Below are positions 2,774 through 34,213 of a DNA stretch of 36,076 nucleotides, one piece after another. The stretch is from a virus, in IMG/VR virus record IMGVR_UViG_3300028383_000197, positions 1 through 36,076 of that record; one strand, written 5' to 3'. The position numbers were made by a program, and so were the translations under genes. Position 1 is the first letter of the stretch. Each line of letters starts with the position of its first letter. The notes under the pieces were generated by a model. The model made no database searches and was not told where the DNA came from. It saw only the letters and a list, made by a program, of their open reading frames with translations.

Positions 2774-2790
2774 TACTTAAATCTTTCGAT
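2774..2790 (-). promoter_or_regulatory. BRE/TATA promoter abutting the polB stop
   Basis: Reverse complement ATCGAAAGATTTAAGT. The polB TGA (2790-2792) overlaps the first base of the motif. TATA centre is about 32 bases from ATG 2746. Confidence 0.65.
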
Positions 2791-5648
2791 CACATGAATG
2801 CAGCGAGATCTTCCTGCTTCTTCCCATCGATGAGATCGTCGAAGTCCCAGCCCATGGTTTCCACGATTGGCTCAATCGGTTGCCGTATCGTTTTCTCCGC
2901 CATCTTCTCATAATCGATGTGGATCTTATCAGGGAGATTGTTGATATTATTCAGAGAAATAGAGTTGACATCCTTCCCAACCTCTTTCATCGTTGGGTGA
3001 TCGGTGATGTCGTCTAACCCGGTCCACGAATCATCATAAACATACACGGGTGGATACGGGAACGTGACCGAACTGACATAGAAGAACATCGGTTTGTCGC
3101 CCGATGATATTTTCTCACCATCAACATGTGCGTTCGCATAGCGCGCGCCACGTATCTGCGGCTGTGGTGTTGTGTATTTTCCGTTGACATTCGGCCCGCC
3201 ATATTCCCGCAGGGGCTTCTTGATGGCAGATGGGATTGCAATCTTCTCTAAGGAAATATCTCCCGATACCGCCGGTTCCCAGATATTTTGTAGGTATTCT
3301 TCCACGTTTTCCCTGGGGTTTTCGTCGGTAAGAATGTACTCTAAAACCTTCTGCTGTGCTTCAACCGTGATCTCGGATGCATCTGACCGGACCAACTCGA
3401 ATCCCTTTGTCGCTGGCTCTGGTTCGTCGATGATCTCCCCCTCACTCCACGTGATCAGTTGGGAGTACCGTTTCTTCACACCTTTGTTTGGATCATTCGA
3501 CTTGAAGTCCTGTAAGAAGAACAATGAATCTGCAAATGATTCGATCTCTACTTCCATCTTGTGCATCGATGGATCGTCGATCCAATAGCGATCGGCCATA
3601 AACGTGTCATACATTTTGTTGACATGTTCAGCTGCGCGGAAGAACGGAAGCGTTGGTTCATGGCCATCTTGTATCCGCTCATAATCTTCTTGTATCTCTC
3701 CTGGAGTCACATCGAGATCGGGAAATGTCGTGATCAACGAATCTGTATCGCCGCCGATACGTCGTGCATTCTCGTGGCCGTTGGTGTGGAGCCACTCTTC
3801 GAATTCATCCGACGTGTATGTCACGACATCTTGTCCGGCGAGTGTGATGCTCTCTGCAAGACGCCAGTCGAACAGACGGAAACCACGACCGTATGAGGCC
3901 GAGTCACCGAACACACCATAGATACTGTTCGTGATGCGCTTGACGGCTTCGTACTGCTTGCCGGTCCCTTTATATTCATACTTCATGTCTGTGAGCATTG
4001 TGATCACAGATCGAACGAACCCCTCCTTCACATCCGGCTTTGTGTAATAGATCTCCTCGGGGTCTGGGTCACTATTCTTCTTATCTGGGTCCGGTCGTCT
4101 ATCGACATATGCCCGGTATAGGTCATCTTCCGAGTATCCGTCAACACGAGCATCTTCCATCGTGTCATACACCGTTTCAGGCGAGATGTTCAGACTCCAC
4201 ATCAGATATGGATATAGCGATGCAAGGTCAGGATACACAACATTTGTGTGCAGACCGGGCACGGGGTTGAACACCTTCGCACCGTAGTACCAGCCGCGCT
4301 CTGGGCGCGTGCTCGTCGGTAGCGCGATGTTGTCGCCCTGTGCCTTTCGCAAGAACAGCATATCGATAAGACCGATGTTCGAATCGGCGATCTCACTGTA
4401 GGTCGCGCCGGTGATACTTCTGATGTGGTCATACAGATCGAGCACACCCTTTGCGTTCTCGATGTCGACCACCGCCTGCACGTCGCGGATGTTGTATTTC
4501 ATGAGATCGACGGGTGTGTACAGCCATGCATCATCCGTTGAATCGATGTCCTCTTTCCCATACCCAAGCTCTTCTTCAGCGATCGCACCGAGCGCATAGC
4601 TCCGCTTCTCGTGTATCTGTGTCTTCTTGTACGCCTGCAACATGTCGACAAGCTGTCGTCCACGGATCACAGCTTCACCCCGACGTGTGGTGAACACCTC
4701 GCCCTCTGGCGACATGTCCTCGTATGTCCACTCGTTGATGTTGCGGCAGCGGTTGACCCAGTATGGGTAGTCGAATCCGTTCCCCATCTCATTGCGTGAG
4801 CTGTTCCACCCTGTGAGGATGTCTGGATCGTGCTCATATATCCACGCATTTCCATCTGCTAACATCTGATTTTCATCGTCATAGATGTCGAACGACACCT
4901 GGTCCCATGAGACACCGTCTGGTAGTTCCCAGTCCGGTTCCCCTGTCCATGTATCGCCGTCTTTGAATATGGTGTCCTGCGGTCGAAGGACCGCGACCTT
5001 GTATCTATCGGTGTATGTGTCGTGCATCGTGTACGACGTGATGGGCATCTTTGCTTCATCTGGCTCTGGGAACGAACCAGCAGTATACACTTCAATGTCG
5101 ATTGTGACCATCCTCGGTGTCACAGCGTCGATGTCCTCTGTTGCAGAAATGTCATCGATGTGCACACGTGATCTATCTGTGGGCACAGACACACCGCGTT
5201 TGATCCCAGTGTCGATCAAGAAGCGCTCCCGGAAGAACACATCAGCCTCCCACGTCTGCTCGAACGCTTCACGAAGACCCTTTACATCCTGCGGCTGTAT
5301 CGTCACAACCCGGACTAACGGCTCATCGTGCAATGTTTTTGCGGGCGGGTGATCGACATGGTGTATCGTCGTGTTGTATATGTTATCCTCATGTATGACG
5401 CGCTCCCGTGACTCGATGTATCGGACGCGGTGGTCTGTGAGCAGATCTTGCTGTCGCTCCGCGAACTCATCTTCTGTGATGTAAAAATACGGGTAGAATC
5501 CCTCGACCTCGATGTACCTGCGTTCACCATCGGCGTTCCGACAATACATCTGAATGATCGGCTCATCATACCTATGGCCCTTCGATTCGGTGACATAGCC
5601 GATGGACATGACCGCCAAGTGTTCTCGTGGGTTTGCAGATAGCTCCAT
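2790..5648 (-). CDS. polB: family B DNA polymerase
   Basis: 952 aa, full-length PolB with proofreading and polymerase domains. Exonuclease motifs: Exo I DIE at about 184-186, Exo II N282 to FD 292-293, Exo III YNIRD at 385-389. Polymerase motifs: A (DLASLYP, 474-480), B (K570 to NSIYG 574-578) and C (DTDS, 634-637). A KKRY segment near 720 fits the thumb-side motif. All catalytic Asp residues are present, so it should be an active replicative enzyme. A BRE/TATA lies 27 bases upstream of the ATG, implying a leaderless mRNA. The protein begins MELSANP, almost identical to the start of the AAA+ ATPase at 13490-15307 (MQLSANP). Confidence 0.97.
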   Translation of the reverse strand: MELSANPREHLAVMSIGYVTESKGHRYDEPIIQMYCRNADGERRYIEVEGFYPYFYITEDEFAERQQDLLTDHRVRYIESRERVIHEDNIYNTTIHHVDHPPAKTLHDEPLVRVVTIQPQDVKGLREAFEQTWEADVFFRERFLIDTGIKRGVSVPTDRSRVHIDDISATEDIDAVTPRMVTIDIEVYTAGSFPEPDEAKMPITSYTMHDTYTDRYKVAVLRPQDTIFKDGDTWTGEPDWELPDGVSWDQVSFDIYDDENQMLADGNAWIYEHDPDILTGWNSSRNEMGNGFDYPYWVNRCRNINEWTYEDMSPEGEVFTTRRGEAVIRGRQLVDMLQAYKKTQIHEKRSYALGAIAEEELGYGKEDIDSTDDAWLYTPVDLMKYNIRDVQAVVDIENAKGVLDLYDHIRSITGATYSEIADSNIGLIDMLFLRKAQGDNIALPTSTRPERGWYYGAKVFNPVPGLHTNVVYPDLASLYPYLMWSLNISPETVYDTMEDARVDGYSEDDLYRAYVDRRPDPDKKNSDPDPEEIYYTKPDVKEGFVRSVITMLTDMKYEYKGTGKQYEAVKRITNSIYGVFGDSASYGRGFRLFDWRLAESITLAGQDVVTYTSDEFEEWLHTNGHENARRIGGDTDSLITTFPDLDVTPGEIQEDYERIQDGHEPTLPFFRAAEHVNKMYDTFMADRYWIDDPSMHKMEVEIESFADSLFFLQDFKSNDPNKGVKKRYSQLITWSEGEIIDEPEPATKGFELVRSDASEITVEAQQKVLEYILTDENPRENVEEYLQNIWEPAVSGDISLEKIAIPSAIKKPLREYGGPNVNGKYTTPQPQIRGARYANAHVDGEKISSGDKPMFFYVSSVTFPYPPVYVYDDSWTGLDDITDHPTMKEVGKDVNSISLNNINNLPDKIHIDYEKMAEKTIRQPIEPIVETMGWDFDDLIDGKKQEDLAAFM

Positions 5649-5671
5649 ATCAAATCAGAAGCGATACGAAG

Positions 5672-5689
5672 TATTAATACTTTCGGTTA
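5672..5689 (-). promoter_or_regulatory. BRE/TATA promoter of polB
   Basis: Reverse complement TAACCGAAAGTATTAATA. The leading TAA is the stop codon of the upstream gene (5687-5689). TATA centre is 27 bases from the polB ATG. Confidence 0.75.
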
Positions 5690-6112
5690 GTGAACAAGAA
5701 CGTCTTTGTGACCGAGAAGTGCTAACAACACACGGGCTGCCGTTTCCATGTCACTGTGATATGAGTTCATCATCCACGACAATGGTATCTGCATATTCTT
5801 CCGCTTTCCATCGTACCAGATCGTGATCGGTTTTCCCGCGCGGTGTGCTTCTCGCATGTATAGCACAGCCCCGACAAGAGATGCGTTGTCTCGCCAGTGC
5901 ACAAGCACACCGTCGATCTCGTCTTGAATAAGATCGATAACAGGCTGTATCACAGCGTCGGGATTACGGTATGGGTTATCAACGTCTTCACTGATGTGAT
6001 ATGGATTTGTATAATTCTGCACACCAAGAAGTTCATGTTCTTCAAGATCTTCTTGCCACGGAAAAGGATCGTTAAAGCCCTCGATTGCTCCACAGATCAA
6101 GATGTTTGACAT
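5687..6112 (-). CDS. nucleoside 2-deoxyribosyltransferase-like protein
   Basis: 141 aa with the order of the nucleoside 2-deoxyribosyltransferase fold: ILICGAIEG at the N-terminus, a middle NPYRNPDAVI, IDLIQDEIDGVLVHW, then SLVGAVLYMREAHRAGKPI, and a C-terminal SWMMNSYHSD. Known enzymes carry GTxxE with a catalytic Glu; aligning GAVLY puts Tyr at that place. It may therefore be an altered or non-catalytic member that binds nucleotides. It neighbours dNTP genes, consistent with nucleotide salvage, but sensing or counter-defence roles are also possible. TATA is 27 bases upstream of the ATG. Confidence 0.55.
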   Translation of the reverse strand: MSNILICGAIEGFNDPFPWQEDLEEHELLGVQNYTNPYHISEDVDNPYRNPDAVIQPVIDLIQDEIDGVLVHWRDNASLVGAVLYMREAHRAGKPITIWYDGKRKNMQIPLSWMMNSYHSDMETAARVLLALLGHKDVLVH

Positions 6113-6135
6113 AGTGGTATCTTATAGACGGGGGA

Positions 6136-6152
6136 ACTTAAAGCTGTCGAAG
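6136..6152 (-). promoter_or_regulatory. TATA promoter of the deoxyribosyltransferase-like gene
   Basis: ACTTAAAG on the plus strand with TCGA on the BRE side. Centre is about 27 bases from ATG 6112. Confidence 0.55.
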
Positions 6153-6157
6153 CCAGG

Positions 6158-6340
6158 CTAGCGTTTGCTGAGACTGTGCGCGTTTGTGTATCCGCACTCT
6201 TCGCACTCGATGCTGTATGCCATATGCTTCTGCTCGGTCAGAATGAAATCCATCGCATCGCGTTCGCTGAGTCGGTCTGGCCCGTGGCGAGCAACAACAA
6301 GCTCGCTACCGCACTGTGGACAACCAACGAACTCTGCCAT
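6158..6340 (-). CDS. small zinc-ribbon protein
   Basis: 60 aa with two CxxC pairs: CPQC near residue 7 and CEECGY near residue 48, which together form a zinc ribbon. The segment between them is helical and charged. Such proteins in archaeal viruses often bind nucleic acid or partner proteins; no specific role is evident. Own TATA box 25 bases upstream. Confidence 0.75.
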   Translation of the reverse strand: MAEFVGCPQCGSELVVARHGPDRLSERDAMDFILTEQKHMAYSIECEECGYTNAHSLSKR

Positions 6341-6361
6341 ACCAGAACATATAACTCACAG

Positions 6362-6382
6362 TATTTAAACCTTTTGGTTTTA
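6362..6382 (-). promoter_or_regulatory. BRE/TATA promoter of the zinc-ribbon gene
   Basis: Reverse complement TAAAACCAAAAGGTTTAAATA. The first TAA is the thymidylate kinase stop (6380-6382). Centre about 25 bases from ATG 6340. Confidence 0.65.
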
Positions 6383-6991
6383 TAGATCGAGTTCTGATTC
6401 GATGATGTTCACCGCGTCTCCTATAACGTGGTGTATCTCTTGATTCGCATCTATCCGATGTATCCGGTCATTTGTCTCATACAGCACACGGTACTGATCA
6501 TTGACGCGCCGTTGAAATTCTATCTCTTCCTCGAACTTCTCAGATTTATCGAGCCGCTCGAATGTTGTGTCGACGTCTGCGTCTAACCACAACGTGACAT
6601 CTGGTGTGTACAGTATCGGTCCCATGGCTTGTTCTATGTATGATGACACATGTGAATCTGGGACACCTGCTGCTGCAAGCGAGATTGTTTGATATGCTCG
6701 TGTAGAATCTGCATACCGATCGCTCACAACGAGGTTCCCAGATCGAACAGCGGGGATGATGCAGTCCTCTACGTGGTATGCTCGATCAGCTAAGAACAGA
6801 TAGAAGTCAACAAATGCATTGTCGATACCGCCCCTGCTGATCGCCTCACGAACATATTGCCCGGTCCATCCATCTGTCGGTTCTTGTGTCAACAGACCGT
6901 TCTCTACACGCGTAGCAAGAGCGGTTGACACCGTTGTCGTTCCGCTTCCATCGACGCCTTCGACTGTGATAAAATATCCACGTTCTGGCAT
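6380..6991 (-). CDS. tmk: thymidylate kinase with altered P-loop
   Basis: 203 aa. Phosphorylates dTMP to dTDP, downstream of ThyX. Features: N-terminal EGVDGSGTTT P-loop, an FLADRAYH segment, VVSDRYADSTRAYQ (the DRY motif) and VTLWLDAD. The usual P-loop Lys (GxGKTT) is Thr here (codon ACG), which is unusual and may alter activity. An upstream in-frame ATG at 7015 abuts the TATA box. The ATG at 6991 (MPERGYF) is 28 bases from it and matches the leaderless geometry, so it is preferred. Family certain; activity is the open point. Confidence 0.88.
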   Translation of the reverse strand: MPERGYFITVEGVDGSGTTTVSTALATRVENGLLTQEPTDGWTGQYVREAISRGGIDNAFVDFYLFLADRAYHVEDCIIPAVRSGNLVVSDRYADSTRAYQTISLAAAGVPDSHVSSYIEQAMGPILYTPDVTLWLDADVDTTFERLDKSEKFEEEIEFQRRVNDQYRVLYETNDRIHRIDANQEIHHVIGDAVNIIESELDL

Positions 6992-7015
6992 ATATTCTCT
7001 GTTGCATGTATGCAT

Positions 7016-7030
7016 ACTTAAAGGTTACGT
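7016..7030 (-). promoter_or_regulatory. TATA promoter of tmk
   Basis: ACTTAAAG at 7016-7023 with GTAACG on the BRE side. It decides the tmk start at 6991. Confidence 0.6.
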
Positions 7031-7077
7031 TACTTAAGTTATCCGACGCACATTAGATAGAGTGTAGACAGTTACAT

Positions 7078-7093
7078 CCGCAAGATTTAAATA
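7078..7093 (+). promoter_or_regulatory. BRE/TATA promoter of dcd
   Basis: CCGCAAG followed by ATTTAAATA. TATA centre 29 bases from ATG 7118. Confidence 0.75.
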
Positions 7094-7117
7094 CCCTCGC
7101 AAGAAAGGTAGTGTACG

Positions 7118-7660
7118 ATGATCTTGTCAGACGCAGACATCAAGCAGCGGGTTCATAACGGTGATATTGTCATCGACCCGTATGATGAATCAAACGTCGA
7201 ATCTGCGTCTGTCGACTTGCGTCTCGGAAGCGAATGGAAGATCGTTCGTCGAGGTGGCGCAAACATTGTAGACACACGCGATGATAGCGGTGGTCTATCA
7301 TACACACCGAAGTCTGGTACAATATTTTTGCAGCCAGTAGAACTTGTGTTAGCGACAACACTGGAATATATCGAGCTACCAGATGACATCGCTGCGCATG
7401 TCATCGGGCGTTCGACGCTGGGCAGAGTCGGTGTATCTATTCACCAGACCGCCGGATTCATCGATCCTGGTTTTCGCGGCGAGATCACACTTGAGATGTC
7501 GAATCTCGGTCCTGCTACAGTCAAGCTGTACGAAGGACAGCGGATATGCCAGATTGTATTCACACAGCTGAGCGGTTCTGCTGAGCAACCATACGGTCAC
7601 GCGGGCTCACAATATCAGGATCAATCTGGTGCGACAGAAAGCGGTATGCAGTTTGACTGA
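7118..7660 (+). CDS. dcd: dCTP deaminase (Dcd family)
   Basis: 180 aa. Deaminates dCTP to dUTP; bifunctional archaeal members go on to dUMP, the substrate of ThyX. Motifs: SASVDLRLG near the N-terminus, GRSTLGRVGVSIHQTAGFID in the centre, then PGFRGEITLEMSN, whose Glu matches the catalytic base, and a C-terminal GSQYQDQSGATES lid. Length fits the family. Leaderless start defined by the TATA box. First of a plus-strand dNTP block with nrdJ. Whether it is mono- or bifunctional cannot be told from sequence alone. Confidence 0.93.
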   Translation: MILSDADIKQRVHNGDIVIDPYDESNVESASVDLRLGSEWKIVRRGGANIVDTRDDSGGLSYTPKSGTIFLQPVELVLATTLEYIELPDDIAAHVIGRSTLGRVGVSIHQTAGFIDPGFRGEITLEMSNLGPATVKLYEGQRICQIVFTQLSGSAEQPYGHAGSQYQDQSGATESGMQFD

Positions 7661-7661
7661 T

Positions 7662-7678
7662 ACCGTAAGATTTAAGTA
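7662..7678 (+). promoter_or_regulatory. BRE/TATA promoter of nrdJ
   Basis: ACCGTAAG followed by TTTAAGTA just after the dcd stop. The expected transcript start is near 7700, giving a leader of about 60 bases before the nrdJ ATG. Confidence 0.65.
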
Positions 7679-7752
7679 CCGATAGATACTACATTCAGAT
7701 CCTTATCGGCGGAGTTTGAGCAACCATAAACGGGGGACCCTCTCACTTTCGC

Positions 7753-7757
7753 AGGAG
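7753..7757 (+). promoter_or_regulatory. Shine-Dalgarno site of nrdJ
   Basis: AGGAG six bases before ATG 7764. It decides that start over an in-frame TTG at 7716. One of the few leadered genes here. Confidence 0.65.
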
Positions 7758-7763
7758 AACAAC

Positions 7764-10088
7764 ATGACAAAAACAACATCAACACGAGCAAAAGAGCGAG
7801 AAGAATTGGCAACAGTACCTGTGCTTTCAGTCGATGAAAGCTTGACTGTTGAACAGCGATTCACGGGAAACACTATCAACAATATCCTGCCTGCGCGGTA
7901 TTTACGCAGGGATGATGATGGTAATATTATTGAAACGCCGTCAGAATTGTTTGAGCGCGTTGCACAGAACGTTGCTGAAGCTGAGTATGTGTTCGGGGAT
8001 GAACAGGGTACACCAGATCATATCGTTGAAGAAGACGTTGCATATTGGAAGAGTGAGTTCGAGACCCTCATGAAGACGCAGCGCTTCATGCCGAACAGCC
8101 CCACGTTGATGAACGCTGGCGCGCGACTGCAGCAGCTTTCTGCGTGCTTTGTGTCATCTCCTGCAGATAATCTAGAGAACATCGCAGAGACAGAGAAAGA
8201 GTGGACACTTGTACAGAAGACAGGTGGCGGTATGGGTGGAGACTTTTCGTCTCTCCGCCCGAAGGGAACGCTCATCGGATCAACAAAGGGAACATCTTCT
8301 GGACCAGTGTCGTTCATGCGAAAATTCAACCTAGTGGCGGGTGTCATCAAGCAGGGCGGTGTTCGACGTGGTGCGCAGATGGCAGAACTTCGTGTCGATC
8401 ATCCGGACATCGGTCGATTCGCGGTCTGCAAGCGCAACGAGGGTGAATACTCGAACTTCAATATCTCTGTGTCCGTGACAGATGAGTTCGTTGAGGCGGT
8501 AGAAGACGATGACATATTCTACTTCTACGACCCCACGACAGAGTTCGAGGAGACATTCGGTATTGTGGAAGATACAGCACACTTTTACTCCCCTGAATAT
8601 CAGGAGTCTCCAGAGACGATCGTTGACGAGAACCTCTGGCGCGATTATGCTGACACATTGGAAGCGTGGGACTGGGAGAACGAGGAGACTGTATCGTTTC
8701 GTGAGAAGTGGGAGGACCACTTCATGGACGCACATGAGTCGGGCGCGTTCGACGAGGGCTCAGAGATGCGTATGCCCGCACGATTCATCTGGGACATCAT
8801 CCTCGATGGTGCATGGCGCAACGGGGAGCCAGGGTTGTTCTACTTGGATGAAACGCGTCGTATGCACTCGTTCGATGCAGCAGAACATCCAGAGTATCAG
8901 GTGTATGCAACAAATCCATGTGCCGAGCAGCCACTTGCAGAGTATGAGGCGTGTAATCTGGGGCATATCAATCTTTCTCTTGTGCTAGATGATGATGCAC
9001 CAACGTTCGATGAGTGGCTGGCAGATGCAAAACACGAGTATGAAACAGACAGCGCTGCCGCATACGATTACTTCGAAGAGGCAGTAGACTTCGATGAATT
9101 AGATCGTATCATACAGGGAGGTGTGCGCTTCCTTGACAATGTTGTCACACAAAGCGAGTTCCCGCTTGAAGAGATCACAGAGCGAGTGAACGGCATGCGG
9201 AAGATCGGTCTCGGCGTCATGGGGTGGGCACAGATGTTGTACCAGATGGGTATTCGGTACGGCGACGGCGTTTCGTTACAGCTTGGTCGCATCATCATGA
9301 ATTACATCGACAAGACAGCGACACACGCATCACACGTGCTCGCAGAGCAGCGTGGCGTATTTGACGCGTGGGAATCCAGTAAGTATGCTGACCCGACACG
9401 ATACGCCGATTGGTTTGCATCACATGCGCACGAACTTCCGGAAGAGTGGGAGGACGGCTACCCGATACGGAACCACAACGTTACCACGGTCGCCCCAACC
9501 GGGACGACAAGTATGATCGCAGACACAAGCGGTGGCATCGAGCCAGTGTTCAGTGTTGCATACATGAAGAATGTCGGCGAAGACATTCAGGGAGACGATA
9601 TGCTTGTTGAGTTCGACAAGGTGTTCATCGAGGCACTAAAGCACAACGAGCCGTCGCTCGATCACACGGTCGAAGAGATCAAGCAGATCGCTGCTGATCA
9701 GATGATGCAGAACAAGTTCGATGGTGTTCAAAGTCTTCCCATCCCGCAGTGGATGAAAGATACCTTTGTCACAACGAACGATCTCTCATCGCGCGAGCAC
9801 GGTCTGATGCAGCGCGCGTTCCAAGATGGTGTGGACTCTGGCATCTCGAAGACGGTAAACATGCCATCCGACGCGAACCACAAAGACGTTCACGAGGCGT
9901 ATATGTTAGCGCTTTCACAGGATGAGTTCGGTGCAGCGATCAAGGGTCTCACAGTGTACAGAGACCAGAGCAGAGAGGTTCAGGTGTTGACAACACAGGG
10001 ATACTCAGATCTTGAAGTACAGAACGCGGTCGAGATGCTTGAAGAACTTGGGTACGGAATCACAGAACCAGAAGGGGGTGATGAATAG
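7764..10088 (+). CDS. nrdJ: class II (B12-dependent) ribonucleotide reductase, catalytic core
   Basis: 774 aa. Reduces ribonucleotides to deoxyribonucleotides using adenosylcobalamin. Landmarks: RFMPNSPTLMNAG, then LSACFVSSP (first redox Cys), KTGGGMGGDFS, the active site NPCAEQPL (Asn, thiyl-radical Cys and Glu), EACNLGHINLS (second redox Cys) and the phosphate-binding APTGTTSMIAD. No radical-generating NrdB-type gene is nearby, as expected for class II. The core ends at TAG 10086-10088. The usual C-terminal zinc-ribbon tail follows in the same frame as a separate ORF. The start is set by AGGAG at 7753. Its reductant could be the thioredoxin at 33908-34213. Confidence 0.95.
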   Translation: MTKTTSTRAKEREELATVPVLSVDESLTVEQRFTGNTINNILPARYLRRDDDGNIIETPSELFERVAQNVAEAEYVFGDEQGTPDHIVEEDVAYWKSEFETLMKTQRFMPNSPTLMNAGARLQQLSACFVSSPADNLENIAETEKEWTLVQKTGGGMGGDFSSLRPKGTLIGSTKGTSSGPVSFMRKFNLVAGVIKQGGVRRGAQMAELRVDHPDIGRFAVCKRNEGEYSNFNISVSVTDEFVEAVEDDDIFYFYDPTTEFEETFGIVEDTAHFYSPEYQESPETIVDENLWRDYADTLEAWDWENEETVSFREKWEDHFMDAHESGAFDEGSEMRMPARFIWDIILDGAWRNGEPGLFYLDETRRMHSFDAAEHPEYQVYATNPCAEQPLAEYEACNLGHINLSLVLDDDAPTFDEWLADAKHEYETDSAAAYDYFEEAVDFDELDRIIQGGVRFLDNVVTQSEFPLEEITERVNGMRKIGLGVMGWAQMLYQMGIRYGDGVSLQLGRIIMNYIDKTATHASHVLAEQRGVFDAWESSKYADPTRYADWFASHAHELPEEWEDGYPIRNHNVTTVAPTGTTSMIADTSGGIEPVFSVAYMKNVGEDIQGDDMLVEFDKVFIEALKHNEPSLDHTVEEIKQIAADQMMQNKFDGVQSLPIPQWMKDTFVTTNDLSSREHGLMQRAFQDGVDSGISKTVNMPSDANHKDVHEAYMLALSQDEFGAAIKGLTVYRDQSREVQVLTTQGYSDLEVQNAVEMLEELGYGITEPEGGDE
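10074..10082 (+). promoter_or_regulatory. Shine-Dalgarno site of the NrdJ tail ORF
   Basis: GGGGGTGAT matches the archaeal 16S anti-Shine-Dalgarno sequence and lies 6 bases before ATG 10089, inside the last codons of nrdJ. It supports separate initiation of the tail. Confidence 0.6.
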
Positions 10089-10202
10089 ATGGCACAATCA
10101 GGATATTTCCAAACACACGGTTGCCCGGATTGCGGTGGACAGATGCGACCCGACGGCGGGTGCATGGTCTGCCTGCAGTGCGGTTTCTCACCGTGCGCAT
10201 AA
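10089..10202 (+). CDS. detached C-terminal zinc-ribbon tail of NrdJ
   Basis: 37 aa: CPDCGG, then GGCMVCLQCGFSPC near the end. This is the cysteine pattern that normally ends class II reductases and carries electrons to the active site. It lies in the same frame as nrdJ, directly after its TAG, and begins with its own ATG and a strong GGGGGTGAT site. It is either a true separate subunit acting in trans or the product of a stop-codon mutation in a once continuous gene. The homology assignment is firm despite the length because the spacing of all six Cys fits. Confidence 0.85.
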   Translation: MAQSGYFQTHGCPDCGGQMRPDGGCMVCLQCGFSPCA

Positions 10203-10220
10203 ATGCGGTAGCTGTCAACG

Positions 10221-10400
10221 ATGGTCGTATTTTCAGATAGAATATGTATCGCGGCAATAATCGGTATTGTTGTAATGATGGGAGATATAATTTTTCATCC
10301 TTCTACGATCAAACCATTCTGGTCTGAGTCTGCTATCATTGGACTTATTGGATATATGATAACATTCATCGCGATTTCAGTCCGCTCTTTTTTCAGATAG
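10221..10400 (+). CDS. small membrane protein, two predicted TM segments
   Basis: 59 aa starting MVVFSDRICIAAIIGIVVMM. Two hydrophobic stretches (about residues 8-20 and 36-53) are separated by a short polar loop with Trp. It follows the NrdJ tail ORF by 18 bases on the same strand. No family recognised. It could be chance, but the continuous hydrophobic pattern is unlike shadow frames. Confidence 0.5.
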   Translation: MVVFSDRICIAAIIGIVVMMGDIIFHPSTIKPFWSESAIIGLIGYMITFIAISVRSFFR

Positions 10401-10461
10401 AATAACACCTACGTGTGGTGTAAACCGGTGTATAGTGTATACGTGATATAAATATCCGCGA
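10401..10461 (+). terminator. hairpin region between convergent genes
   Basis: Holds the imperfect inverted repeat ACACC ... GGTGT (near 10405-10421) and another GTATA/TATAC pair between the plus-strand block and thyX. Plausible terminator for both strands; no long T-run, so weak. Confidence 0.3.
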
Positions 10462-11292
10462 TTATGCGCTGAGTGAATGCGGTCGATTGTTTCTGAACCA
10501 GTTCACTGTATACGGCATCCATTGATATAGCTGTTCCTCTAGTTCTGCAGCAAGCTCTCGTATCTCCCACTGAGCATCGGCTTTCCCTCGAATACTCAAC
10601 AAGTGGAGGAACGCTCGTGCATTTCCGCTAACGGTGATATTCACCTTTGTACCAATAGGCAGCACCATTCGCGCATCTTCTTTCGGCACACCGTGTTGAA
10701 CAAGCTCATCGTATGCGTCAAATGAGCGCGACACGGCGTCTTCATACACGTCTTGCAGATGCGCTTGCATACTATCACTTAATTCGACAAGACCCGTCTC
10801 ACGCGACATGTGCTCTTCTGAGCGGATCGAGGCAGGTACCACAACATTTGCGTCACTAAAGTTTGCATAGCGCATACTCTGTATGTCAAACGTGAGGTGT
10901 CGGTGCCGTGTAATCTGTGCCATGAGCGATCTGCTCACACCTTCGATGGCAAACGTGATCTGCGGGTGTTCCCACAAACCAAAGTGCCCACGCGACAACT
11001 GTGTTTCAATAAACGCGCGTGTTTTCACCTCGACAAGTGTAACGTCGTCTAATTCACCGTCATCGCTATCAAGATATGCGCCGACCTGCTGATCAACTCG
11101 ATATGCCGTCGAGTCTTCTAGCGGCGCTAATAGATCTGGCAGTCCTTCAACGTGCTGGTCTTTGAATGTAACCGGCTCCATAATATCTAGATAACTCACG
11201 TCATCGATGTAACCGTCGTAATAATCTCCTCTACCCGCCTTACAGACGAGTAGCTCTGCGTCTTCTGTTCTGCTTATTGTGTTCACTCTCAT
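10462..11292 (-). CDS. thyX: flavin-dependent thymidylate synthase ThyX
   Basis: 276 aa. Converts dUMP to dTMP using FAD, NADPH and methylene-tetrahydrofolate. The ThyX signature appears as RHRHLTFDIQSMRY at about 129-142, slightly divergent from RHRxxSxNxxSxRY: Thr and Asp replace the usual Ser and Asn. The later RGKADAQWEIRELA fits the conserved C-terminal Arg region. The first roughly 85 residues (MRVNTISRTEDAEL onward) make it longer than many ThyX proteins. Works with Dcd and Tmk in this window. Own promoter 26 bases upstream, so leaderless. Confidence 0.93.
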   Translation of the reverse strand: MRVNTISRTEDAELLVCKAGRGDYYDGYIDDVSYLDIMEPVTFKDQHVEGLPDLLAPLEDSTAYRVDQQVGAYLDSDDGELDDVTLVEVKTRAFIETQLSRGHFGLWEHPQITFAIEGVSRSLMAQITRHRHLTFDIQSMRYANFSDANVVVPASIRSEEHMSRETGLVELSDSMQAHLQDVYEDAVSRSFDAYDELVQHGVPKEDARMVLPIGTKVNITVSGNARAFLHLLSIRGKADAQWEIRELAAELEEQLYQWMPYTVNWFRNNRPHSLSA

Positions 11293-11313
11293 ACCTGACT
11301 GTATGAGCCGCTG

Positions 11314-11330
11314 TGTTAAAAGTGTTGCGC
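11314..11330 (-). promoter_or_regulatory. TATA promoter of thyX
   Basis: Plus-strand TGTTAAAAG followed by TGTTGCGC. TATA centre 26 bases from ATG 11292. The upstream gene's stop at 11330 touches it. Confidence 0.6.
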
Positions 11331-12316
11331 TATCCGTTTCCGTGCGCGCCGTTTCGCCACACCGTGTTAGACGTGACCTCTATAAACTGTGCGTTGTTCC
11401 TTGCTTCACCGAGTGTTGTGCCATTGCAATAACTCATTGCTGATCGGATACCATCCTGGTATCGCCGCAACAGAGATGAAACAGAGCCATTCATCGGTCG
11501 TGTAAACGATGCACCCTCAACCATACTTGCATCTCCATACATATCTCTCTGTGCTGACTCAGATGCCATCCCGCGGAACAGCTTTTCCCCGTGTGCCGTC
11601 ACAGGCGCTGCAGACTCCTCACAGACCGCTAGTTCTCCGCCCATCATGACAGCATCCGCGCCCGCCATAAGCGCCTTGCTGGCGTCACCAGGCGTCCGTA
11701 TGCCGCCATCAGCGATCACAGTGACGTTCTCATCACGCGCAATATCAACCACACTAGATATTGCTGTCATCTGTGGCACGCCAACCCCGGTATTGATCCG
11801 CGTTGTACACGCAGAGCCTGTTCCAACACCAACACGAAGACTATCTGCACCAGCGTCGATAAGATCCTTAGCCGCCTCTGCGGTTGCGATTGTGCCTGCC
11901 ATGACTGGAGCGCCAATAGATCGTATTGTCTCTATCGCATCGTCGTGATGAGCGTGGGCGACATCCACACAGATGAAATCTGCTCCTGCATCCAACAGCA
12001 TATCTGGAACCACACCGCCTTCATTGATACCGATAGCTGCTCCGCATGGTGTTTCATTGCTCACCGAATCCATCATTTTTATCCTGTCGTTCAGCGACAA
12101 AAATCGGTGCAGAACGCCAATGCCTCCAGCCCCAGCTATTGCTTCTGCCATGTCAGCGTCCGTGACGGTATCCATCGGGGATGCGACGACGGGTACATCA
12201 ACGTATATATCACGAATGATACGCGACCGTGTAGATATATCATGACGAGATGATATTGATGAACGCTGAGGTACAATCAACACATCGTCAAACGTCAGAC
12301 CGGCTGCATACATCAC
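11330..12316 (-). CDS. IMP dehydrogenase / GMP reductase family enzyme
   Basis: 328 aa TIM-barrel enzyme without the CBS domain insert of most IMP dehydrogenases. Motifs: LTFDDVLIVP, VVASPMDTVTDADMA, the phosphate and catalytic loop GVGTGSACTTR (Cys at about 170), ADGGIRTPGDASKAL, KLFRGMASESA and GIRSAMSYCNG. It interconverts IMP, XMP or GMP. Lack of CBS and length near 330 fit GMP reductase, while other positions resemble IMP dehydrogenase; I cannot decide. It would adjust guanine nucleotide pools for replication. Its ATG overlaps the stop of the upstream 83-aa gene by 4 bases. Confidence 0.88.
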   Translation of the reverse strand: MMYAAGLTFDDVLIVPQRSSISSRHDISTRSRIIRDIYVDVPVVASPMDTVTDADMAEAIAGAGGIGVLHRFLSLNDRIKMMDSVSNETPCGAAIGINEGGVVPDMLLDAGADFICVDVAHAHHDDAIETIRSIGAPVMAGTIATAEAAKDLIDAGADSLRVGVGTGSACTTRINTGVGVPQMTAISSVVDIARDENVTVIADGGIRTPGDASKALMAGADAVMMGGELAVCEESAAPVTAHGEKLFRGMASESAQRDMYGDASMVEGASFTRPMNGSVSSLLRRYQDGIRSAMSYCNGTTLGEARNNAQFIEVTSNTVWRNGAHGNG

Positions 12317-25061: not shown

Positions 25062-25330
25062 CTGTTGTATCCATCTGCGCGCTCAACCTTGATGTATCCG
25101 GCTGCGACAATCTCACCGTCGGGTGTCTCGATGCGCACATCAAGGTCGTACTGTCCTGTCCGGAATTTCCGGTGTATCTCTGTACGTGTGTTCACGATGG
25201 GAGAGTCCTTCCGCTCGAAGCCCGCTCGTATCGGTTGCCCATCAACCATCGCAACGACAGATGGTTCATGGTCGATCAGCGGCGGCTCTGCAGGTATCCA
25301 TCCCTTGCCCGCAAGCTCTTTGAGCGTCAT
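25058..25330 (-). CDS. small protein between rIIA-like and rIIB-like
   Basis: 90 aa: MTLKELAGKGWIPAEPPLID, then VVAMVDGQPIRAGFERKDSP and a beta-rich end (YDLDVRIETPDGEIVAAGYI). No family. Overlaps both neighbours by 4 bases (ATGA at 25327 and 25058), so all three are co-translated and probably form one complex. No counterpart is visible beside the second copy. Confidence 0.6.
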   Translation of the reverse strand: MTLKELAGKGWIPAEPPLIDHEPSVVAMVDGQPIRAGFERKDSPIVNTRTEIHRKFRTGQYDLDVRIETPDGEIVAAGYIKVERADGYNR

Positions 25331-26889
25331 CGAACCGCCTCCTGTATATCGACAATCATAGATTCTATATCGATGTGCTTCAGTTCTTCAACAGGGTCTT
25401 CACTCTCGTTGATCTCGTGCATCACACGCGCGACGTGTTGCTCAAACATCATCTTCAACTTCGACCCAAGCCATGTCCAGAACACGTCGTTCTGCTGTAG
25501 CCGATCTCTGTCAGATGTTGGCTCTGGCAGTGTAAGGTCGCCTGTTTCTTCGTGCGGGTCGAATGGTTCAAGTTCATCTTCTGGGACATATCTTGCCGCT
25601 CTACCAGCATCCATGCTATCCCATGTGCCATCATCGATGACAACACGTCTTTTGTGGGGACCGATCAAAACAACAACATCACCAGGAATATCATCCCCGT
25701 GTAGGTCACTTTTGGCGACGTAAGTGTGGGGGGGAAGCGGTGTAGAATCGGTTAAAATTTTATCATCTACAGCAATATCGCCAGCATGTGGGCCTTCGTC
25801 AACATATTGCCCGATGATGTCATTGTTTGATAACATGTCCTCAATGATCACACCGCTGCGCGCATCAAGTAACATTTGCTCATAGTCTGATCGCGGACAC
25901 GGCATCTTCCCCTCGTGTCCGTTGTCTGATACGATCACCTTTCCAGATTCATCGAGCAATCTGATGTCATACGGGAACGGTGCTTTGGATGTTGGGTTTC
26001 TATCGTTCCTGTCGATGGGCATAGACAGCAATAGCGTTGTGTCCTCTGCATCAATCGAACAGTGCGCTTCGAATGCACCGTCGATGCTCATTGAATATTT
26101 TGCTGTTGCTTCTGCATAATCATCTGTCAGATGCGCATCTCCCCAGTCCTCGTTGAATACCTCTTCGCCAGCCTCATCATACTCTCGGTATATCACCGGA
26201 ACCCGCATCCATTGGCTGTATGTCTCAACAGCGCCACGGATGTCAAATGTATCTTTCGGCGTCATCTGGAACGATGTTCCGTACTGATCATTTGGCATCT
26301 TTCCGATGATGGGCTCTGGACCAGCAAGCGATACATATGTCGAGAAGTTCTCATCTGTCTGACGAGAATGCGTCGTCATGACCATCGAATTATCGATACC
26401 GATGAGCTTCACGAAGCTGAGTGCACCCATACCGAACTGCCCAGAATACTGTCCGCTGTCTCTTGCGACAGAACTTCCGATACGGCGGAAGATATGATCG
26501 ATCTCTGCAGCGGCCATACCAACACCGTTATCTCGTATCGTGAGGGTATTGTCTGCTCGGTCCCACGTTACCTCTATGCGGGGCTCATACCCGTCGTCGA
26601 TACCATACAACGAGTCAACATTGAATGTCTCGGGTGCGTCGTCCTCGATAAACTCTTCGACACGCAAGCATGCTGTCTCAGCATTGGCGAGATATTCTCT
26701 GATCGTCGATTCCCAGGATTCATACAAATCATCAGCAACCTTGCGGATGAGATGTCGCATATCACCACTGAATGAAAGCGGCTCTGTTCCAAGCGGGTGT
26801 TCGTCTCCGGCAATACCAAGCTGTTTGTGTTCAACGACCGTCTTCCCTTCGTGGAATACCGGGTTGAAGTCATCGTGTTCGTTGCTCAT
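25327..26889 (-). CDS. rIIA-like GHKL ATPase, copy 1
   Basis: 520 aa. Bergerat ATP-binding fold (Hsp90/gyrase/MutL type): IREYLANAET (E65, N69), IRDNGVGM (120-125), GQFGMGALSF (150-155), then SFQMTP and a second domain with MRVPVIYRE. T4 rIIA has the same order (RELITNM, RDFGPGM, GGFGLG). It shares residue patterns throughout its first 350 aa with the 872-aa protein at 28746-31364 but lacks that protein's long C-terminal part. MORC- or TopoVIB-like ATPases are alternatives; the rIIB-like partner argues for rIIA. Leaderless: TATA 27 bases upstream. Confidence 0.75.
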   Translation of the reverse strand: MSNEHDDFNPVFHEGKTVVEHKQLGIAGDEHPLGTEPLSFSGDMRHLIRKVADDLYESWESTIREYLANAETACLRVEEFIEDDAPETFNVDSLYGIDDGYEPRIEVTWDRADNTLTIRDNGVGMAAAEIDHIFRRIGSSVARDSGQYSGQFGMGALSFVKLIGIDNSMVMTTHSRQTDENFSTYVSLAGPEPIIGKMPNDQYGTSFQMTPKDTFDIRGAVETYSQWMRVPVIYREYDEAGEEVFNEDWGDAHLTDDYAEATAKYSMSIDGAFEAHCSIDAEDTTLLLSMPIDRNDRNPTSKAPFPYDIRLLDESGKVIVSDNGHEGKMPCPRSDYEQMLLDARSGVIIEDMLSNNDIIGQYVDEGPHAGDIAVDDKILTDSTPLPPHTYVAKSDLHGDDIPGDVVVLIGPHKRRVVIDDGTWDSMDAGRAARYVPEDELEPFDPHEETGDLTLPEPTSDRDRLQQNDVFWTWLGSKLKMMFEQHVARVMHEINESEDPVEELKHIDIESMIVDIQEAVR

Positions 26890-28742: not shown

Positions 28743-28755
28743 TACTTAAAGCTTG
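28743..28755 (-). promoter_or_regulatory. TATA promoter containing the rIIA-like stop codon
   Basis: Plus-strand TACTTAAAG; TTA at 28746-28748 is the reverse complement of the rIIA-like TAA stop. Centre 27 bases from ATG 28720. Confidence 0.55.
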
Positions 28756-31364
28756 TCCTGCAGCATGCCATCAGGGATGTCATCGCCCATCGCCTCCATG
28801 ACCTCGATGAGTTCACGCATGCTGGTATTTTCTGGAGCCGCCCAATCATATCCGAAGAGCGCTTCAAAGTGATCTGAATCGGTGTCAAGGTCTGGGAACT
28901 CATTGTTCATGTAGACCCAGAATATATCTATGTCCACGTGCTCGGTGTCATCTGGCCACCTCCTGTTACCATCCACGATGATCACGCGAGTAACATCGTT
29001 GATGTGGTTACGCAGGTATACAGGGAGGGAGAGGTATGTGCGCCGACCAACGGTGCTGATCGTCCCTGTTAGCGGAACACCGATTATTCCGGACAGATGG
29101 CGTCGGAGTAGTTCTGTGCGACCCCGATATATGTCCTCTGTGTTGTCCTCGTTTGCAACAACAAGGACATCACACGATGTGTATGGGTCAGCGTGGTCAT
29201 CGATGAAGTCCTGTATGAGCGCGTCTTCGTCGGTGTACATTCCGTCGAACTGTTCGATGTATTCGTGGACATACTTTGGAACTGCGGTTGCAGCAACACC
29301 GAATGTCTCTGATATGAGTCGAGTTGGCGGCGTTGACCCATTGATCTCGTTCTGATCGTACACCATGATATACTCTGCGTCGTTGTAGAACCTATTCATA
29401 CTCACCGACTCGCCCTTCTCTGTTGTCTCGATGAGCTGGTTCACAGTGTATGATGTGATGGTCTTGCTGCTGTCGTAGCGAACCTTGATGGTGCGCGACC
29501 CCGCGTCCTGTGATCTGCTCGTCGATCCGCGTGAACTGGTTGATGTTCGACCGCTCGACGATTCAAGTTCATCGAGCAGGTCATCATCAAGCTGTGGCAG
29601 CTTCTCCCGAAGGTTTCGTGACGGAAGGTCCTTCAACAGCTTGAACCCCCACTGTTGTTGGAACGCCTCATAGGACGACAGCGCATCGTTTGACTCCTGT
29701 GGGTCGATGCGGATGATGTGTGTATCACCGAGCGCATGCGCGATGCGCGCTTTGGTCTGCGAGATGGTCTTTGCGACATACACGCCATCTGGTGCCTCAT
29801 CGATGACCTCCCAGAGATTCTTTGCGTTCTCACGAGCGGGCTTCAACAGATCTTTCCTGTTACTGTCCCGTGGAACGACAAGCACGTCTCGGTGCATCAG
29901 TGTAAAGTTCGTAGCAACCTCATCGCTGACCGTCACACCCAGCTCCTCTTGCAACGCCTGCTGCATCTTGTCAGGGTACTTTCTATCAGAGTACCCCACG
30001 TGTATCTTGACCCCTGACACGACAAGCGCCTTCTGCTTCGTCGTTAGTGCGGTGAAGTCAGACCATCGGTTGATACCGGAGATCACACGATATACCCTGT
30101 CGTTGAACGCATCCAGCAGCTTCGTAGAGACATGTTTCCAGAATGCATCGTTTCCGGCCATGTATGAATCTCTGGATGAGGCTGGTGCAACCATCTCGAT
30201 AGCATCACCGGGGACCGCAGACCGGTGAATGCTCTTTTTCTGACGGCGCTCCGACATGCGCTCATACGTGGTATCATCGACCGGGACACGCCCGATCACA
30301 GACGGGTCAGACTCACATGCGACGATGGGTCCATCCTCGCGCTTGGCGCGGAAATCCCACTGCCAGGGTGCATGGAACGCCGGTGTTCTGCCGAACTCAT
30401 CTGTATTCCGCTTGATGGGCATCGTGACATTGTACGTGACATGTCGGCGACGGCCCTCAGGAACGCGCGGGGCCATGACGGCCTTGAAGAACTCATTCTC
30501 ATACGTGATTGTGATAAGGTCGTCATCGTAGTCATCCTCGATATTCCGCGGAAGGAAGTCGTCGGACTCGTGGGTCTCAGCACCAGACTCATCGAAATCG
30601 CGGTACAGCACCGGGATACGCATCCCCTCGCTGTACTCTGCGACCTTCTCTGACACCGCCACGAAATCCATCGCATCGTCGGAAAACGACGGGAACTCGA
30701 ATCGCGTTCCCGCCAGCGACCGCACGCCGTCAAGGTATTCGAAGTTCGCCACATATTCAACCGTGCTGTACGCCTCGTCGGTCAGGTATGACCGCGTGTA
30801 CATGCGGAACGCGCCGTGGACACCTGTGAGGAGGAACCCGCTCATCCACCCCATGCCGAACTGCCCCAGGCGCTCACCGTGCATGTGCGATGTGGAATAA
30901 CCTATGCGCTGAACGACCTGATACTCCTCGACAGAGATACCGATACCGTTGTCCTCGATGACAAGCTGCGGTGCGGTATCAGACCTGTTGTGTGTCACTT
31001 CGATCAGCGGCTGATAGTCAGCGCGCTCTTGCGCGAGTGCGACCATCTTGTGCGTGTCTGCGGGGATGTCGTCCTCTGATACGCCGGCGTCAATCAACTC
31101 TGCGCGTGCGCGACGGATGCATGCAGTCTCCGCGTTGGATAAATATTCGCGGATGGCAGCAGCCGGATCATCGTAAAACTGCACGAATCGCTCTCCTGCG
31201 ATCTTCGCGTCATAGATGCGCTCCTTCGAAGGGTCGTCTTGCCCGAGCGCCTGCTTAAGCGCGTGTTCGTCACTCGCAACATCAGCGGTCTTGATCTCAG
31301 CGCCGATGGTCGAGCGATACTGTTCGAGTTCGTCGTTGGTCATGGTTGTTGGTTCTGTCACCAT
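28746..31364 (-). CDS. rIIA-like GHKL ATPase, copy 2 (long form)
   Basis: 872 aa. IREYLSNAET (E73, N77), IEDNGIGI (138-143) and GQFGMGWMSG (167-172) form the ATP site; MRIPVLYRDFDESG parallels MRVPVIYREYDEAG in copy 1, and further matches run through the first 380 residues. The C-terminal half is unique: a charged region, a Ser/Arg linker near 605-625 (SSGRTSTSSRGSTSRSQ) and a basic-to-acidic end. T4 rIIA (about 725 aa) is similar in size. Divergent from the rIIB-like gene at 31452. Could be a membrane-associated host-takeover or anti-exclusion factor as in T4; that is inference. Confidence 0.78.
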   Translation of the reverse strand: MVTEPTTMTNDELEQYRSTIGAEIKTADVASDEHALKQALGQDDPSKERIYDAKIAGERFVQFYDDPAAAIREYLSNAETACIRRARAELIDAGVSEDDIPADTHKMVALAQERADYQPLIEVTHNRSDTAPQLVIEDNGIGISVEEYQVVQRIGYSTSHMHGERLGQFGMGWMSGFLLTGVHGAFRMYTRSYLTDEAYSTVEYVANFEYLDGVRSLAGTRFEFPSFSDDAMDFVAVSEKVAEYSEGMRIPVLYRDFDESGAETHESDDFLPRNIEDDYDDDLITITYENEFFKAVMAPRVPEGRRRHVTYNVTMPIKRNTDEFGRTPAFHAPWQWDFRAKREDGPIVACESDPSVIGRVPVDDTTYERMSERRQKKSIHRSAVPGDAIEMVAPASSRDSYMAGNDAFWKHVSTKLLDAFNDRVYRVISGINRWSDFTALTTKQKALVVSGVKIHVGYSDRKYPDKMQQALQEELGVTVSDEVATNFTLMHRDVLVVPRDSNRKDLLKPARENAKNLWEVIDEAPDGVYVAKTISQTKARIAHALGDTHIIRIDPQESNDALSSYEAFQQQWGFKLLKDLPSRNLREKLPQLDDDLLDELESSSGRTSTSSRGSTSRSQDAGSRTIKVRYDSSKTITSYTVNQLIETTEKGESVSMNRFYNDAEYIMVYDQNEINGSTPPTRLISETFGVAATAVPKYVHEYIEQFDGMYTDEDALIQDFIDDHADPYTSCDVLVVANEDNTEDIYRGRTELLRRHLSGIIGVPLTGTISTVGRRTYLSLPVYLRNHINDVTRVIIVDGNRRWPDDTEHVDIDIFWVYMNNEFPDLDTDSDHFEALFGYDWAAPENTSMRELIEVMEAMGDDIPDGMLQDKL

Positions 31365-33726: not shown

Positions 33727-33929
33727 GATTTCCGTTATTTACATCGGAATATATAATATGGGCGTATCAGTTGTTCCGCGGCAGAGATGTCGAGTTCATC
33801 GAGGGGGTTGAGATGCTCCCGTGGTGGGAGATACAATCTATCGGGGAAGATGCTGATCACAGAACAGACTTCAGGAATACGATCATCGGGCGACGCGACG
33901 AGATCGGTCAGCTGAACCGACACCACTGA
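33723..33929 (+). CDS. hypothetical small protein
   Basis: 68 aa from ATG 33723, overlapping the previous stop by 4 bases (ATGA). MRFPLFTSEYIIWAYQLFRG, then VEFIEGVEMLPWWEIQ and a charged end. Composition is normal for the virus again. It runs 22 bases into the convergent thioredoxin gene. Confidence 0.55.
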   Translation: MRFPLFTSEYIIWAYQLFRGRDVEFIEGVEMLPWWEIQSIGEDADHRTDFRNTIIGRRDEIGQLNRHH

Positions 33930-34213
33930 ACGCTTCGTATAGTCCCGAACAGATTCGAACTGTTGTTGACGGTTCCAAAGACCGTCGTGATGACATCGAC
34001 TGGTGTCACACCCGTCCAGCGATCGACCTCATATGCATCATCTTTGAGGATCAGTGTTGGGACGGCGCGCACATCATCGGTCTTCGCGCGCATGCTATCA
34101 TCATCGATGTCCACCGGTTCTACAGGGACGGTCTCGAATGATTCGAGCATTGCTGACTGCATCTTGCATGGACCACACCACTCTGCTTCATACTTGACGA
34201 GGTGTAGTGTCAT
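33908..34213 (-). CDS. thioredoxin-like protein
   Basis: 101 aa with EWCGPCKMQ (residues about 11-19, the active CGPC), PVDIDDDSM, and RAVPTLILKD holding the cis-Pro. It reduces disulfides and is a plausible electron donor for NrdJ and its detached tail. Its ATG overlaps the stop of the 53-aa membrane gene upstream (ATGA). The C-terminus extends a little beyond a minimal thioredoxin and overlaps a convergent gene. Confidence 0.9.
   Translation of the reverse strand: MTLHLVKYEAEWCGPCKMQSAMLESFETVPVEPVDIDDDSMRAKTDDVRAVPTLILKDDAYEVDRWTGVTPVDVITTVFGTVNNSSNLFGTIRSVQWCRFS

Follow-up and report, generated by a model that had tools for sequence, protein, structure and literature searches.

A predicted class II ribonucleotide reductase with a separately encoded 37-residue zinc ribbon in a salt-lake archaeal virus

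Organisation of the nrdJ locus

The DNA analysed, referred to here as the window, is a stretch of 36,076 nt from a salt-lake archaeal virus (IMG/VR record IMGVR_UViG_3300028383_000197). Positions 2790-12316 hold a cluster of dNTP and replication genes, including a family B DNA polymerase, a thymidylate kinase, a dCTP deaminase/dUTPase, NrdJ, ThyX and an IMPDH/GMP reductase. The nrdJ gene of this cluster ends in ...EPEGGDE-TAG and is directly followed by a second, small ORF, called the tail below (MAQSGYFQTHGCPDCGGQMRPDGGCMVCLQCGFSPCA; start codon ATG at 10089-10091, stop codon TAA at 10200-10202). A sequence-only reading of the window had described a reductase ending in EGGDE-TAG with the ATG of a 37-aa ORF as the very next codon, and its coordinates were found to be correct. 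The features of the locus are collected in Table 1.

Table 1. Features of the nrdJ locus and related genes in the window.
Feature	Position	Strand	Remarks
dCTP deaminase/dUTPase-type gene, dNTP cluster	7118..7660	+	PF22769, E 1e-48; upstream of nrdJ
nrdJ, class II (adenosylcobalamin-dependent) ribonucleotide reductase catalytic subunit	7764..10088	+	774 aa, ATG 7764
NrdJ C-terminal extension	9996..10085	+	30 aa after conserved QVLTT (alignment); ends EGGDE
Shine-Dalgarno-like site GGGGGTGAT	10074..10082	+	within 3' end of nrdJ
TAG stop of nrdJ	10086..10088	+	tail ATG directly adjoining
Separate zinc-ribbon redox subunit (proposed small NrdJb), 37 aa	10089..10202	+	homology, coding selection
Viral thioredoxin-like protein, WCGPC	33908..34213	-	PF00085 Thioredoxin, E 5e-11

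NrdJ of the window matched TIGR02504 (NrdJ_Z) with 654.6 bits, the curated cut-off being 399.95, and was also matched by PF02867 and PF00317. Its best solved relative is NrdJ of T. maritima (1xjk/1xje) and the nearest kin found are the NrdJ proteins of haloviruses. The protein belongs to the class II, B12-dependent reductases; the activity itself is predicted. Only four cysteines are present, C128, C222, C386 and C397. The first and the last two are invariant in the NrdJ alignment and align with the active-site cysteines of the T. maritima enzyme. Since three of the four are active-site residues, no cysteine pair remains at the C-terminus of the chain. A profile search located no TSCPD domain in NrdJ of the window, nor in that of haloviruses HGTV-1 or HF2. 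In the C-terminal extension one helix (residues 749-761) was predicted in a model of low confidence, and the EGGDE codons double as the ribosome-binding site of the tail.

Further along the window, a 59-aa ORF after the tail (10221-10400, forward strand) has a membrane-like sequence and is apparently also present in the related contig L001, its protein pattern retained although the DNA diverges. Two reverse-strand ORFs (25327-26889 and 28746-31364) share the motifs REYL(A/S)NAETAC and DNG(V/I)G, resemble GHKL-type ATPases and are possibly paralogues.

A zinc ribbon apart from the catalytic chain

A zinc ribbon with six cysteines normally terminates NrdJ. In a six-frame translation of the window this six-cysteine pattern occurs a single time, at the tail, and its cysteines (C12, C15, C25, C28, C31 and C36) were invariant in 22 tails. 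Their order is that of C920, C923, C933, C936, C939 and C945 of Stackebrandtia nassauensis NrdJ. Judged by alignment with the enzyme of Stackebrandtia (PMC5704485), the tail should bind zinc through C12, C15, C28 and C31 and use C25 and C36 as its redox pair. It aligned with the C-terminal 30 of the 759 positions of NCBIfam NF006417 (730-759; E = 4e-6), the profile of a vitamin B12-dependent ribonucleotide reductase. The top tblastn matches fell at the C-terminal ends of B12-dependent reductases encoded by crAss-like, Thermus and haloarchaeal viruses. With the cysteine pattern and the C-terminal profile match, the earlier claim that this ORF carries the zinc ribbon of NrdJ holds. When modelled alone, the tail formed a beta hairpin (pLDDT about 87 over residues 11-37). 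It consists of these 37 aa only and does not extend to a full cysteine-rich domain of 150-220 aa with a TSCPD or IscU-like part.

The tail could also be read as an unrelated haloarchaeal zinc-finger microprotein located beside nrdJ, with the reductase using another reductant or the tail of a host enzyme. Haloarchaea do encode small CPxCG zinc-finger proteins, for instance Brz (PMC2253796), and when the tails were used for a profile search of the PDB, many generic zinc ribbons came up. Such an origin is quite unlikely, given that the six-cysteine spacing with its terminal C-x4-C pair is of the NrdJ-tail type, that the top profile hit falls on the extreme C-terminal end of a B12-dependent reductase, and that the ribbon lies next door in exactly those viruses which have no fused tail, in a gene order conserved in two lineages. 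A fold search with the tail returned generic zinc ribbons only (best E 0.2), and phrog_35870, a family of 39 aa and unknown function, is a weak match to it.

Conservation of the split in related viruses

The same layout was found in L001, a separate virus contig whose NrdJ is 92% identical to that of the window. A TAA stop takes the place of the TAG and the Shine-Dalgarno (SD) site GGGGGTGATGAAT is unchanged. The two tails differ in 11 codons, 10 of which are synonymous differences and one a conservative change, an excess of synonymous changes with a P of about 2e-6 to 1e-5 under neutrality. In the DNA just 3' of the tail, identity to L001 falls to about 60%. This pattern of substitution indicates that the tail is under strong purifying selection.

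The third case is HGTV-1, a Halogranum virus isolate with an NrdJ 56-59% identical to that of the window. Its NrdJ (gene 108) is followed by a 30-aa ORF (gene 109, TAATG overlap) and then by a ribbon ORF (ATGA overlap with gene 109), which starts 88 nt downstream of NrdJ in a different frame. This ribbon ORF, MSATQQICPSCGEGVIEQSSHSSCGVCNNCFFSPCSN, is preceded by GGAGGTGA and also encodes 37 aa. It is located at positions 57287-57400 of KC292026.1 (L004:5447-5560) and is unannotated, the annotated gene 110 overlapping it in another frame.

These relatives bear on two explanations by which the small ORF would be without function or an artefact. According to the first, the tail is dispensable and has been decaying since a nonsense mutation, with the reductase drawing on small-molecule thiols or formate. 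NrdJ without its tail does stay active with DTT in vitro (PMC5704485), and the tail cysteines are missing from some class II enzymes (PMC9669993). The nearly exclusively synonymous differences from L001, the conservation of SD site and cysteines in HGTV-1 and the rapid decay of the sequence just 3' of the tail make this most improbable. According to the second, the stop codon of nrdJ is a sequencing or assembly error, as might be suspected in a metagenomic virus record, but a different stop codon occupies the same place in a separate contig and the isolate HGTV-1 is also split, which leaves a negligible chance for an error.

In the NrdJ tree, from which proteobacterial NrdJa is absent, the window, L001, L002, HGTV-1 and L023 form one clade (support 87/88). 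All three members with a complete 3' end (window, L001 and HGTV-1) are split; the contigs L002 and L023 stop short of the 3' end of NrdJ. Apart from these three, 39 viral loci were complete at the 3' end, and in 37 of them, including the HF2-like viruses, L017-L022, L024 and the Druskaviridae, the NrdJ ORF itself ends with a fused cysteine ribbon; the exceptions are the distant L035 and L050. These data are best explained by one fission event in the common ancestor of the clade of the window and HGTV-1, with moderate support.

The sequence-only reading had held that related viruses with uninterrupted genes, and this virus a lone mutant among them, would speak against a two-piece reductase. Alignment with related viral NrdJ genes confirmed the first part, most of them being fused, and not the second, as the split belongs to a lineage and not to one sequence. 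Separate tail, start site and coding selection are conserved in L001 and HGTV-1, in agreement with the two-piece reading, and by sequence criteria the split is real, conserved and functional.

In pattern scans of IMG/VR, mini-ribbons beside NrdJ were found only in L001 and HGTV-1. No such mini-ribbon was found in 84,980 cellular genomes by a narrow scan for an SD site, an ATG and a ribbon after nine residues (x9); the 26 places retrieved were 22 C-termini of NrdJ chains and four small ORFs without NrdJ in the upstream stretch covered. As the pattern was narrow (GGTGA, one spacing), this is a limited negative for cellular genomes. The patterns of the NrdJ scan yielded no relatives among bacterial and archaeal genome contigs.

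Three viral NrdJ genes contain insertions, probably inteins or introns (L023, 3304-4356; L024, 3370-4596; L047, 4054-4806). The insertion of L023 adjoins the active-site cysteine C128.

Translation at the TAG-ATG junction

The GGTGA of the SD-like site is spaced 7 nt from the ATG of the tail. When pairing with the 3' end of haloarchaeal 16S rRNA was computed, this ATG reached -16.0 kcal/mol, the strongest value of 1,657 ATGs on both strands of the window, so that the site, noted as strong in the sequence-only reading, is the best predicted one. The nearer fused relatives have no comparable SD site before the ribbon, their best in-frame start having -6.1 versus -16.0 kcal/mol. The idea that hidden internal starts give a free tail in these fused relatives was rejected, no strong site being present.

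At the junction, stop and start codons adjoin and the SD site lies within the upstream gene, the arrangement of termination-reinitiation. Adjoining or overlapping genes of Haloferax volcanii are strictly coupled through this process, and SD motifs of haloarchaea serve termination-reinitiation and not de novo initiation (PMC6728339). Termination-reinitiation of the H. volcanii type, by which the tail of the window is probably translated, agrees with both overlaps in HGTV-1 and with the exceptional SD site at the TAG-ATG junction.

Readthrough of the stop codon, making both forms of the enzyme, had been proposed as well. Programmed readthrough of the TAG would give a minority of full-length protein with NrdJ and tail, the usual one-chain enzyme, and in both the window and L001 the tail is indeed in frame with NrdJ with one stop in between. 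Neither the stop codon nor the frame is conserved in the relatives, however: L001 has TAA, and the tail of HGTV-1 is in another frame, 88 nt away, so that fusion by readthrough is impossible there. What is conserved is the start codon with its exceptional SD site. The TAG is also an ordinary stop in the window, where other likely genes terminate at TAG, and no tRNA gene was found in the window, hence no suppressor tRNA. For HGTV-1 readthrough can be excluded, in the window it is very improbable, and as an account of the locus it retains little probability.

Relation to known reductases

Split class II reductases are already known; new here are a subunit consisting of the ribbon only and its occurrence in an archaeal virus lineage. 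No description of a split reductase in haloviruses was found in the open-access papers searched.

In the NrdJa-NrdJb system of Pseudomonas aeruginosa and other Proteobacteria, catalytic and redox parts are encoded by adjacent genes (PMC4520616), and in the window the redox domain likewise lies in a separate adjacent gene. The Pseudomonas split is located on a bacterial chromosome, that of the window in an archaeal virus. NrdJb of P. aeruginosa has 229 aa (PMC4520616) with an IscU-like domain and a zinc finger (PMC9669993), whereas the tail is a 37-aa ribbon only and does not comprise the whole cysteine-rich domain (about 200-230 aa) of an NrdJb. Thermus phage phiYS40 (L146) has, like the window, a viral class II reductase split before the tail (PMC3653736), with nrdJ-a and nrdJ-b 12 nt apart and an SD site (AGGAGG) between them. 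Unlike the tail, the product of its nrdJ-b is 199 aa long and combines a TSCPD domain (PF12637) with the ribbon, and the host of the phage is a bacterium. The phage record L086 (IMGVR_UViG_3300027985_000286) combines a 670-aa catalytic ORF with an overlapping 228-aa NrdJb-like ORF in another frame. In Pseudomonas, phiYS40 and L086 the entire cysteine-rich domain is thus split off, while in the window the ribbon alone is separate. With 37 aa it is the smallest redox subunit found in this analysis.

NrdJ of the HF1/HF2 type (Hafunaviridae) resembles that of the window in its catalytic chain (57-58% identical), in its compact form without TSCPD and in the same six-cysteine ribbon, but the ribbon is fused to the catalytic chain. 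HGTV-1 likewise encodes its ribbon in an ORF of its own, preceded by an SD site, and shares the order TMP kinase, dUTPase, NrdJ; it differs in having the 30-aa gene 109 between NrdJ and ribbon. NrdJd of S. nassauensis has six cysteines in the same order as the tail, four for zinc and two for redox, but there they are part of a fused domain of 150-220 aa which also drives oligomerisation (PMC5704485).

A model for electron transfer in trans

The best explanation of the locus, and a probable one, is a class II reductase made in two pieces by a haloarchaeal tailed virus, in which a free ribbon would reduce the active site in trans. The large chain, stopping at the TAG, would comprise the barrel, the region that binds B12 and three active-site cysteines, with C128 and C397 as the pair oxidised in each turnover and C386 as the thiyl-radical cysteine. 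After terminating at the TAG, ribosomes would be directed by the SD-like site in the last codons of nrdJ to start again at the ATG of the tail, giving NrdJ and a free zinc ribbon of 37 aa in a ratio set by reinitiation. The ribbon is predicted to hold one zinc through C12, C15, C28 and C31 and to dock to NrdJ, where its C25-C36 dithiol would visit the active site and reduce the C128-C397 disulfide after each turnover. It could then be recharged by a thioredoxin-type donor, possibly the thioredoxin encoded by the virus itself, or by another reductant. The C-terminal extension of NrdJ and the first 11 residues of the tail are candidates for holding the ribbon. An AlphaFold model of the joined protein was of low confidence (pLDDT 54) and says nothing on docking.

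The separate encoding of the tail suggests that it works unjoined to the enzyme. In Stackebrandtia, all six cysteines are required for reduction via the tail, and a tail can serve another subunit (PMC5704485), and in Pseudomonas dithiol exchange is mediated by NrdJb as a subunit of its own (PMC4520616). Against electron transfer in trans counts that truncated Stackebrandtia NrdJ was not rescued by a separately made cysteine-rich domain (PMC5704485). Two further points count against the two-piece model, namely that the 37-aa ribbon is without the TSCPD or IscU-like part of known NrdJb proteins and that the complete split loci number three.

Instead of a tightly bound subunit, the ribbon might be a free, exchangeable micro-redoxin, a variant we consider unlikely. 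It would then be one dithiol carrier with its own stoichiometry, serving many reductase molecules and perhaps those of the host too. If so, lone ribbons in phages without a reductase gene in the record would act on class II reductases of their hosts.

Under the two-piece model, a class II reductase manages with the smallest redox piece seen in this analysis, a zinc ribbon of 37 residues with neither tether nor docking domain. This raises the question of the route by which the tail reaches the active site and of its reductant, which can be tested with a synthesisable peptide. The model also assigns a function to a small ORF overlooked in the reference halovirus genome HGTV-1, and suggests the same question for the lone six-cysteine ribbons of other phages.

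Lone ribbons in other records

Lone six-cysteine ribbons similar to NrdJ tails, about 29-39 aa long and equipped with an SD site, were observed in virus records L064 (7199, forward), L069 (6561, forward) and L083 (5828, forward). Further ribbons of the same type are present in L085 (3626, forward) and, on the minus strand, in L104 and L124. A large reductase chain was not found in these six records. Small ORFs for NrdJ-tail-like ribbons, without NrdJ in the upstream stretch covered, also occur in contigs of cellular metagenome-assembled genomes (L157, L167, L169 and L173), three of the four having the common start MEFCP[ED]CG.
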